IMG/VR virus record: IMGVR_UViG_3300030098_007219
Span: 1-33,021 of that record
Strand: one strand, 5' to 3'
Origin: a virus
DNA length: 33,021 bases
Positions 5,590-17,394 of this stretch are shown in pieces. Within the stretch, counting starts at the first letter, position 1, and each line of letters opens with the position of its first letter. A program made the translations under genes and the position numbers. Below the pieces are notes generated by a model. The model saw nothing but the letters and a program-made list of their open reading frames with translations, was not told where the DNA came from and made no database searches.

Positions 5590-6939
5590 TTATTCTAGTC
5601 CTCCTTCTCCTGGATCCTCTCCGTTTTCTAAAGCGTATTTTGTCCACCTCCTTCTAATTAGATCGCAATATTTAGGACTAATTTCGCATCCATAGCCGGT
5701 CCTATTGTTTCGAGCCGCGGCTATTAAAGTTGATCCGCTGCCCATAAACGGATCAAAGATAATATCTTTTTTATCTGTAAATGCTTTAATAAAGAATTCA
5801 GGAAGGGAGACGGGGTAGGCGGCACTATGCCCAGTAGATCCGGGATGTCCCCCACGAATTCTATTAGAAGGAAGAGCTATCCCTTCATAAAGCTCGGGTT
5901 TAACTCCGCTTTTATAATTATCGGAGGTTAGAGCGAAATGACTTTCAACTGAAAAAACAGGAATTATCTCGGACTTATGCCCCACCTCTAAAGGATAAAA
6001 TTTAAAAGTAGAAGGAGCGGAAAGGCTAAAGTGAAAAACCGGCTCCCATCCATTTTTAAACCTTCCTTTATAAAGTCCACACATCCCATGCCGCTCCCAG
6101 CAGTATTCATCGACAAACTTCCATCCCCATTTTCGAACATGGGCAAGGGTTAAATCCTTAACATACAAAACCCGTTCCCCGTTTTCGCAATGCTCTTTAA
6201 TATTTACAAACCAAGATCCATTGTCTGCTAAAAACTCTTTTACGTTTTGTTGCACTGGTTTAAACCACTCTACAAATTGATCGGGTTTAATAGGTTCAAA
6301 CTCTGAATCCTGATCGTAGTTTCTTTGCGCGGCATATGGGGGCGACGTGACCGCGATTTGTATTTTAGGAGAATCTTTAAATAAAGTCCTTACAATTTCA
6401 GGGTTTCTACAATCCCCACATATTAACCGATGGGGCCCCAGTTTATAAACGGTTCCAACGGTTGAAAAAACTTCTTCTTGTAATTCTGGAAGCGCTTCTT
6501 CTTCTGAGTCTTCAAGATCTAAATCAGTTTCTTTTAAAAGAGAATCTAATTCTTCTTCCGAGAAACCCAAGCCGTCCAGATCTAATCCTTCTTCGTTCAT
6601 TGAGTGAATAACTTCAGAAAGTTTATCTTCATCCCACAAGCTCAACTCCCCGATTTTATTATCGGCAAGGGCTAATAATCTGGATTGATCTTGACTTAGA
6701 TCCATTAGACGGACGGGAACTTCTTTATACCCTAATAATTTGGCCGCTTTAAATCGGGTATGTCCCGCGATGATCATTCTATTTTCTTTTCTCGCTATAA
6801 TCGGAGAAGAGAAACCAAACCGTTGAATACTATCCGCGACAGCCGTCACGGCATCATCATTTAATCGGGGATTATCTGGCCAGGGTGTTAACTCTTCAAC
6901 CCCTAACCAAACCGCGGCGGCTTCTTGGTTATTGTTCAT
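5590..6939 (-). CDS. DNA methyltransferase with N-terminal ParB-like domain
   Basis: A 449-residue fusion common in phages. Residues 1-115 are a ParB/sulfiredoxin-like domain, including IIAGHTRFKAAKLLGYKEVPV. An acidic linker (about 120-157) leads into an amino-methyltransferase. Motif IV is TSPPY (198-202) and the SAM-binding FDPFMGSGST is at 395-404. Motif IV before motif I is the beta-class order, and SPPY rather than DPPY favours N4-cytosine over N6-adenine as target. Neither base nor recognition site can be read from the sequence. It may protect phage DNA from host restriction or mark it for packaging. It is transcribed between RusA and the small terminase. Confidence 0.9.
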   Translation of the reverse strand: MNNNQEAAAVWLGVEELTPWPDNPRLNDDAVTAVADSIQRFGFSSPIIARKENRMIIAGHTRFKAAKLLGYKEVPVRLMDLSQDQSRLLALADNKIGELSLWDEDKLSEVIHSMNEEGLDLDGLGFSEEELDSLLKETDLDLEDSEEEALPELQEEVFSTVGTVYKLGPHRLICGDCRNPEIVRTLFKDSPKIQIAVTSPPYAAQRNYDQDSEFEPIKPDQFVEWFKPVQQNVKEFLADNGSWFVNIKEHCENGERVLYVKDLTLAHVRKWGWKFVDEYCWERHGMCGLYKGRFKNGWEPVFHFSLSAPSTFKFYPLEVGHKSEIIPVFSVESHFALTSDNYKSGVKPELYEGIALPSNRIRGGHPGSTGHSAAYPVSLPEFFIKAFTDKKDIIFDPFMGSGSTLIAAARNNRTGYGCEISPKYCDLIRRRWTKYALENGEDPGEGGLE

Positions 6940-15979: not shown

Positions 15980-16528
15980 ATGGATATAAAAGATATTCAA
16001 AGAAAATTAGTTAAGATGTTATCCCACCCTGGGGAAGGATACGAAATTCCAGAACAGGGGAGAGAATTATTCGAATCTTTAGGATTATCATTCTTTCAGG
16101 GTGTCAACTTTCCCAAATTGTTTAGTACAGATATTTCATGGGAATATTTAAAAACAGGAATAGCCCCTCCTAACGGAATTCCAGATAAGGATTTAGGATG
16201 GTGGTTAGACTCCGAAGGATATATGGGTCTTCACTTTTATTGGACCAATCTCTCTTACGCGAACTTAGAAGGATGTTCCTTTTCATTCCCGAGATGGGAA
16301 TCTATGAGAAAAGGAACCACCAACTCATATTTTGATCATGTCTCTTTTTTTCAAGCCAATTTAAAAGATGCTGACTTTAGGGGTGCTTGGCTTAATCATG
16401 TCTGTTTTAAAGATGCGAACTTGGAAGGGGCAAACTTTACAGGTGCGATGATGGAAAACTGTAATTTCAATAACGCCAAGGGGATCCCTATTGGGTGGAC
16501 TTCCCCTTTTGGGAAGAACTTCTTATGA
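15980..16528 (+). CDS. Pentapeptide-repeat protein
   Basis: A 182-residue protein with an N-terminal ~85-residue region of unknown nature. Pentapeptide repeats (A(N/D)LxG-type) follow in two blocks: LSYANLEGCSF near residue 90 and FFQANLKDADFRGAWL through CFKDANLEGANFTGAMMENCNF at about 120-170. Such repeats fold into a square beta-helix; some family members mimic DNA and bind gyrase, others have no known role. AACAGGATCAAAAA precedes the ATG. Its stop overlaps the methyltransferase start (ATGA), so the two are made in step. Confidence 0.82.
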   Translation: MDIKDIQRKLVKMLSHPGEGYEIPEQGRELFESLGLSFFQGVNFPKLFSTDISWEYLKTGIAPPNGIPDKDLGWWLDSEGYMGLHFYWTNLSYANLEGCSFSFPRWESMRKGTTNSYFDHVSFFQANLKDADFRGAWLNHVCFKDANLEGANFTGAMMENCNFNNAKGIPIGWTSPFGKNFL

Positions 16529-17394
16529 TTAAAATCGGAAGCGTTTTTTCGGGGATAGGCGGTTTTGAAATAGGAATAGAAGCGGCTTTAAATTCGGAAA
16601 ACATTAAAACTAAAGTTTGTTTTCAAATAGAAAAAGATCTCTATTGCCGGCAGGTATTACAAAAGCACTGGCCCGACTCTTCTATTTTTTCAGAAATTCA
16701 AAACGTTAAAATTGAAGAGTTAGAAGCTGTAGATCTTTTAATGGGTGGATTTCCTTGTCAGGACATCTCCGCCGCCGGAAAAGGAGAAGGATTAAATGGA
16801 TCAAGATCAGGATTATTTTATGAATTGCTCCGAATTATTCGCGAGTTGGAGCCCCCAGTCGTCCTGCTGGAAAACGTCCCAGCGATCTATTTTCGGGGAT
16901 TGGGAGACGTTTTCGGGGAGTTGGCCTCTTCAGGGTATGATATCCGATGGAAAAGCTTATCGGCTTCCGAGGTGGGATTCCCCCACCTTAGAAAAAGATG
17001 GTTCGCTCTGGCCTACTCCCACAAAAGGATTCGGACAGAACTTTCCGATTCCTCAACTTCACCCAACCCGATTCCGAAAAATAATCCCCAGCGGTCTTCA
17101 TGGGGTCAACCTATCGGAAGCCGTCCAATGCTATCACGGAAAAGGACAACTAAACCCGCAATGGGTAGAAGCATTAATGGGATTTCCCATCGGCTGGACC
17201 GAAGTCCCGCCTATAGAGGAGAAGATCAGTTTAAATGGGAGCCCCGAAGAATCTCCTTAAAACGAAGGAAAAACGAATCTAAAAGAATTCATTTATTAGG
17301 GAATTCTATTGTTCCTCTTCAAGCCGCTATGGCTTTTAAGCAATTGGGACTAATTGAAGTAATTCAATCTTTAAAAACTGATCTAACTCTTTGA
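16525..17394 (+). CDS. DNA cytosine-C5 methyltransferase
   Basis: A 289-residue enzyme that methylates cytosine C5 using SAM. Motif I is VFSGIGGFEIG, motif IV GGFPCQDIS with catalytic Cys78, motif VI LLENV, motif VIII FPHLRKRWF, and motif X HLLGNSIVPLQAAMAF. The target recognition region between VIII and IX is short, as in many phage enzymes, and its site cannot be read. I choose the ATG at 16525, which overlaps the upstream stop, rather than the in-frame ATG at 16495. The 3' end overlaps a convergent minus-strand gene by 31 bases. Codons about 90-245 also encode a second protein in the +1 frame. It may shield phage DNA from host restriction. Confidence 0.93.
   Translation: MIKIGSVFSGIGGFEIGIEAALNSENIKTKVCFQIEKDLYCRQVLQKHWPDSSIFSEIQNVKIEELEAVDLLMGGFPCQDISAAGKGEGLNGSRSGLFYELLRIIRELEPPVVLLENVPAIYFRGLGDVFGELASSGYDIRWKSLSASEVGFPHLRKRWFALAYSHKRIRTELSDSSTSPNPIPKNNPQRSSWGQPIGSRPMLSRKRTTKPAMGRSINGISHRLDRSPAYRGEDQFKWEPRRISLKRRKNESKRIHLLGNSIVPLQAAMAFKQLGLIEVIQSLKTDLTL
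16796..17260 (+). CDS. Overprinted protein in the +1 frame of the methyltransferase
   Basis: A 154-codon frame lying entirely inside the methyltransferase gene. AAGGAGAAGGATTAA directly precedes its ATG, close to the phage's AGGATCA style. It reads WKTSQRSIFGDWETFSGSWP, GMISDGKAYRLP, LWPTPT and LNPQWVEALMGFPIGWTEV. I recall the same ordered motifs from phage database proteins labelled hypothetical or methyltransferase. Generic C5-methyltransferase codons from motif VI to IX, read in +1, yield the same motifs, so the frame may be a conserved overprint. It has no known activity. The other reading is a by-product of the enzyme's codons that is never translated. Confidence 0.6.
   Translation: MDQDQDYFMNCSELFASWSPQSSCWKTSQRSIFGDWETFSGSWPLQGMISDGKAYRLPRWDSPTLEKDGSLWPTPTKGFGQNFPIPQLHPTRFRKIIPSGLHGVNLSEAVQCYHGKGQLNPQWVEALMGFPIGWTEVPPIEEKISLNGSPEESP

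Follow-up and report, generated by a model that had tools for sequence, protein, structure and literature searches.

A +1 overprinted protein inside a phage C5-cytosine methyltransferase gene is probably the beta subunit of a two-protein enzyme

The window, that is, the whole stretch of 33,021 nucleotides from virus record IMGVR_UViG_3300030098_007219 that was analyzed, encodes a C5-cytosine DNA methyltransferase with a second open reading frame in +1 inside its gene. Comparative analysis of this locus and its relatives makes it very likely that the +1 frame is translated and that its product is the beta subunit of a C5-cytosine DNA methyltransferase made of two proteins, in an arrangement like that of M.EcoHK31I. 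The frame 0 product (alpha) would fold as the catalytic domain, comprising the AdoMet site, the PCQ and ENV motifs, and motifs I-VIII and X. The +1 product (beta) would start from its own internal ribosome-binding site and contribute the motif IX segment as well as a variable region for target recognition. Together, alpha and beta would rebuild the full enzyme, for which we infer complex formation and methylation activity. The pair is probably an orphan methyltransferase whose role in the phage is to protect or mark its DNA; no restriction enzyme was noticed among the neighboring genes. The function of the +1 product had been described as unknown in the preliminary description of this DNA. This is probably not the case, as beta resembles a second subunit of this enzyme, for which M.EcoHK31I is a precedent, and the best reading is that its function is known in kind.

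The 33-kb record carries portal, large terminase, major head, tape-measure, tail, and endolysin genes. Alpha (289 aa; 16525-17394) begins with an ATG at 16525 and ends with a stop at 17394 on the + strand, on which all features of the pair are encoded. Beta (154 aa; 16796-17260) is nested wholly within alpha, and its ATG is offset by 271 from that of the methyltransferase, which places it in +1. The 154-codon open frame, an AAGGA-type site 5' of its ATG (16787-16791), and four motifs (FGDWETFSGSWP, GMISDGKAYRLP, LWPTP, and LNPQWVEALMGFPIGWT) had all been reported in the preliminary description, and each was confirmed in the sequence. The AAGGA is itself preceded by a purine-rich AAGGAG (16781-16786), and the resulting AAGGAGAAGGA (16781-16791), which is the putative ribosome-binding site of beta based on predicted anti-SD pairing, doubles as the codons for alpha residues K-G-E-G, 3' of motif IV.

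Beta comprises an N-terminal domain (residues 10-60; 16823-16975) that lies over alpha motifs VI-VIII and carries the conserved pattern SSWRTSQ...FSETWPRSGMMRNGxxY, a variable region with a WPTP module (16976-17143) that is the probable target-recognition region, and the motif IX segment LNPQWVEALMGFPIGWT (17150-17200). Motif X of alpha (GNSIVP; 17299-17316) is again in frame 0, with G259 and N260 invariant in the A3 alignment. A pentapeptide-repeat protein (15980-16528, + strand) is encoded directly 5' of alpha, and its stop codon overlaps the alpha ATG as ATGA, which suggests translational coupling. Elsewhere in the window, a 449-aa protein (5590-6939, - strand) combines a ParB-like N-terminal domain with a DNA methyltransferase (PHROG 498, 67, and 620), indicating that the phage has a second methyltransferase that is unrelated to alpha.

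The +1 frame could in principle be open and similar among relatives only by way of the conserved amino acids and codon usage of the enzyme, and thus be untranslated. In the alpha gene of the window, a +1 open stretch of this length arose in 0.24% of 5000 permutations of synonymous codons, and the +2 frame was ordinary in the same permutations (p = 0.50). Among 51 representatives with less than 60% alpha identity, the matched stretch contained 3 stops in +1 where well over 100 were expected from permutation, although this openness is partly ascertained because the set was found via beta. We then trained a beta profile on half of the representatives and scored the other half. Real +1 frames had a mean of 132 bits, synonymous permutations 35 bits, and the +2 frame about 0 bits, with the real +1 frame above all 40 permutations in each of the 49 genes scored. 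A separate set of bacterial and other loci from outside the training alignment behaved alike (99.8 versus 21.4 bits when permuted; 47/47 above the permutations). The conservation of the +1 frame is therefore in excess of that imposed by the enzyme. It had been proposed that the codons of the enzyme alone could give rise to the beta motifs. This holds for the portion of the profile score that survives synonymous permutation (about 26%), and conserved motifs such as GKGEGLNG do yield the beta start region for free, but it does not account for the remainder.

The pattern of variation along the gene is likewise at odds with passive openness. We computed the ratio of differences at codon position 3 to those at codon position 1 of alpha (pos3/pos1) for 52 independent pairs, with 95% confidence intervals. 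Upstream of beta, the ratio stood at 2.51 (2.30-2.75). It fell to 1.35 (1.26-1.46) across motifs VI-VIII, a stretch that encodes both proteins, to 0.82 (0.71-0.94) across the variable region, and to 0.63 (0.53-0.74) across motif IX, and rose again to 1.97 (1.76-2.24) once beta has ended. Variability thus switches to the +1 frame precisely where beta is encoded and reverts downstream of it. In alignments built on beta codons, third positions were the most variable both in the variable region (0.45 versus 0.25 and 0.20) and at motif IX (0.23 versus 0.07 and 0.12), which is the mark that a translated +1 frame would leave. In the N-terminal overlap (VI-VIII), both frames are constrained and the alpha frame is dominant. 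For this domain, the beta profile scored above every permutation in just 21 of the 47 genes (mean of 23.3 versus 6.2 bits), and the evidence for the N-terminal domain is therefore weaker than that for the rest of beta. Passive openness of the +1 frame was rejected by the synonymous permutation and codon-position tests, with nothing recovered from the +2 control, and we consider an untranslated overprint to be extremely improbable.

Features of the beta start point in the same direction. Start codons and anti-SD pairing were better than in permuted sequences (p = 6e-10, n = 100). In the window, the predicted pairing of -8.7 kcal/mol, together with an ATG, compares with a permuted mean of -5.6 on a scale that adds a bonus of 1.5 for ATG. 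The start codon is not strictly conserved and the exact site varies among relatives, with one recurring start, which is also that of the window, at the AAT-GG step within alpha G-K-G-E-G-L-N-G. Collectively, the excess conservation, the +1 periodicity, the +1 position of homologs, and the better starts bear out the earlier suggestion of a conserved +1 protein family that resides inside C5-methyltransferases and travels with the enzyme. As judged from sequence comparisons, the coding nature, nesting, and conservation of beta appear firmly established, as does the lack of motif IX in alpha.

Alpha matched PF00145 (E 8e-41) over residues 3-178 only, corresponding to motifs I-VIII, and also matched PHROG 363 and TIGR00675. 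The catalytic motifs with PCQ and ENV are present, as indicated by invariant P77 and C78, E116 and N117, and R156 and R158, and motif IX is absent from the alpha frame throughout the alpha alignment. In the AF2 model of alpha, pLDDT was >90 up to residue 160 or so, dropped below 50 across most of residues 189-243, and was again >90 in the C-terminal helix; the variable region of beta lies over alpha sequence that is predicted to be disordered. Foldseek matched the model to M.HhaI (E 8.6e-16) and M.HaeIII in the PDB. These two enzymes share the fold of the alpha catalytic domain (about residues 1-165) but are single chains, with TRD and motif IX in frame and no overprinted partner.

A count that is independent of beta was obtained by selecting viral loci solely on patterns in two alpha motifs, I and IV, which are upstream of beta. 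A +1 beta with motif IX, and no motif IX in alpha, was identified in 77 of 80 such loci, a figure that speaks for this clade and not for all C5-methyltransferases since the alpha profile was derived from beta-bearing genes. Of the other three loci, two are truncated at the end of a contig and L259 has motif IX in alpha, such that an in-frame motif IX was not found in 79 of the 80 alpha relatives. Three canonical single-chain C5-methyltransferases (L109-L111) have an in-frame motif IX and no beta. To our knowledge, the motif IX segment is needed by every complete C5-methyltransferase.

Beta matched PHROG 1008 ('DNA methyltransferase'; E 6e-21), and its C-terminal part reads LNPxWVExLMGFPxGWT at the position of motif IX. 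In direct profile comparison with canonical motif IX, beta aligned at the right place but marginally (P 0.019, 2.5% probability), and a profile of the segment alone did not find canonical motif IX in the three single-chain enzymes. Because the direct similarity is marginal, the assignment of motif IX to beta rests on position and gene anatomy. When the segment is fused to the enzyme, as in L186, the product aligns with PF00145 from end to end (profile positions 2-319 of 324), and a second PDB domain of L186 puts the segment on M.HhaI LHPRECARVMGYPDSY, a match that is weak and not significant by itself. These observations suggest that beta is very probably the missing half of the same enzyme, supplying the motif IX segment and most of the variable, target-recognition region.

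Beta might alternatively work independently of the enzyme as a separate protein, such as an inhibitor or an anti-restriction protein. No Pfam or NCBIfam family was found for beta, and its structural model, which was of modest confidence (mean pLDDT of 67.8; 82-89 in the N-terminal domain; input alignment A2 of IMG/VR loci), had no fold match in the PDB, including for the N-terminal domain. Among PDB sequences, glycolipid transfer protein matched the beta profile (E 0.02) over one short stretch, which was judged to be due to chance. A separate role is nonetheless very unlikely, given that alpha is without motif IX and beta has a segment in its place, that staggered and fused relatives place this segment between motifs VIII and X of the enzyme, and that M.EcoHK31I provides a precedent.

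Homologs of beta are widespread. Searches by tblastn with the beta product recovered 137 phage records and at least 547 IMG/VR stretches, and beta was in +1 relative to alpha in every locus with comparable matches of both, in line with what had been predicted for homologs of the +1 product. Alpha falls in the frame of beta at L059 and L063, and there only for its first part (motif I). Matched genomes include Proteobacteria, Firmicutes, Actinobacteria, and Bacteroidota, and a nested alpha/beta pair is present on an archaeal plasmid. Among all loci fetched at that stage, 168 had a nested pair, in which the alpha ORF holds motif X and the +1 ORF motif IX, and the non-nested loci comprised a few that were staggered, three that were fused, and a remainder that was partial. 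In the staggered relatives (Dylan, Chubster, ArV1, Brevibacillus borstelensis, and a Desulfobacterales MAG), alpha stops after motif VIII and beta continues in one frame from the motif IX segment into motif X. In L134, L186, and L259, the motif IX segment is in the alpha ORF between motifs VIII and X. L186 and L259 come from the same lineage, assembled separately, and L134, like L129, may be a single-indel variant or an assembly error.

These gene forms bear on whether a programmed +1 slip after motif VIII could generate one alpha-beta chain with no separate beta. A single such slip in the staggered relatives would give a complete I-X chain, and some relatives have motifs IX and X in the alpha ORF. 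Yet a frameshifted product has no need of the conserved N-terminal domain of beta, which is encoded farther upstream, across motifs VI-VIII, the nested genes would require a second slip back to reach motif X, and the start and ribosome-binding sites of beta are better than in permutations. Moreover, beta usually stops before motif IX in the relatives that have this motif in alpha. We regard frameshifting as improbable as an explanation for the +1 frame and as unlikely even as a route to part of the product, and favor a separately initiated beta subunit.

The relatives with motif IX in alpha form a clade that was found by searching with the fused end of L259. It comprises 46 loci (L276-L321 with L186 and L259, the latter two counted) that have motifs IX and X in alpha and keep the +1 beta ORF, which usually stops just before motif IX. 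Across 22 independent pairs in this clade, the alpha pos3/pos1 ratio fell from 2.64 upstream and 2.33 over motifs VI-VIII to 0.49 across the variable region, and was 2.52 over motifs IX-X. The value of 0.49 indicates that the variable region of beta is the selected product even without motif IX, and the alpha frame across this region is apparently little more than a spacer in the clade. The region between motifs VIII and IX of C5-methyltransferases makes sequence-specific contacts (PMC3404938). Since the variable region is selected in the beta frame, we infer that target recognition is carried by beta.

The two polypeptides of M.EcoHK31I divide the motifs between them, with I-VIII and X in the larger and IX in the smaller, and its TRD is predicted to be in the large subunit (PMC3404938). 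M.AquI is also a split C5-methyltransferase, with motifs I-VIII in one chain and motif IX in the other (PMC3404938). The window resembles M.EcoHK31I (YGGCCR, E. coli) in having a large subunit with motifs I-VIII and X and, as assigned by position, motif IX in a second polypeptide. A further likeness is that the small subunit of the window is encoded in another frame inside the gene of the large subunit. In the work of Lee, Kam and Shaw from 1995, the small polypeptide of M.EcoHK31I was reportedly also encoded in another frame within the gene of the large one, and both polypeptides are said to have been required in vitro. The organization of the window matches M.EcoHK31I on every feature examined, and we therefore file it, by organization, as an enzyme of that kind. 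It differs in that the window carries a phage gene and in that the variable region is constrained in the beta frame, whereas the published prediction for M.EcoHK31I places the TRD in the large subunit. Relatives in plasmids and E. coli genomes are annotated as a cytosine methyltransferase gene, and M.EcoHK31I itself was not identified among them. The pattern of M.AquI (CYCGRG) is shared by the staggered Dylan, Chubster, and Brevibacillus genes, which have motifs IX and X in beta; unlike in M.AquI, where beta has motif X, motif X of the window stays in alpha and beta is fully nested.

A search of the openly accessible literature found no description of this overprint in phages. The overprinted arrangement, known from one old laboratory example, is common and mostly unannotated in phages and bacteria. 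What seems to be new here is how widespread this family is, that neither Pfam nor NCBIfam has a model for it, that nested, staggered, and fused forms make up a series, and that there is evidence for target recognition by beta. We lean, by a modest margin, toward the broader proposition that many phage and bacterial C5-methyltransferases annotated as a single gene are two-protein enzymes with a +1 target-recognition subunit, that the corresponding stretch of alpha is a spacer, and that in one clade motif IX moved back into alpha, so that beta there acts in trans and serves specificity alone.

A single gene is annotated for many phage 'orphan cytosine methyltransferases'. If the overlapping subunit is required, the annotated gene expressed alone would yield an inactive protein, specificity predictions from alpha would miss the recognition region, and gene callers would drop a whole family of proteins, one with no Pfam or NCBIfam model. 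The pair is also a deep case of long-lived dual coding, the nested, staggered, and fused forms of which allow the route of gene splitting to be reconstructed.

Several individual loci show further variation. Beta of the Arthrobacter phage Chubster (L003, 1201-2646) has at least six LLPTP/FPTP-type modules, the number of which differs widely among relatives and which are possibly repeated target-recognition units. The annotated start of Chubster gene 82 (KX670786; locus position 1384) falls too late to include the conserved N-terminal domain of beta, the beginning of which is near 1201. In mycobacteriophage Llama (L194, 735-1650), the enzyme is annotated as two DNA methyltransferases and is broken by a frame change, such that alpha and beta both continue in other frames. 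A Roseovarius assembly (OX638333) has five loci (L160, L161, and L163-L165) with identical scores for the gene pair, and these probably represent a multi-copy prophage. Lastly, an Actinomycetota MAG (L154, 2101-4165) encodes a second alpha-like C-terminus and a second beta match downstream of the first, perhaps as a tandem pair.
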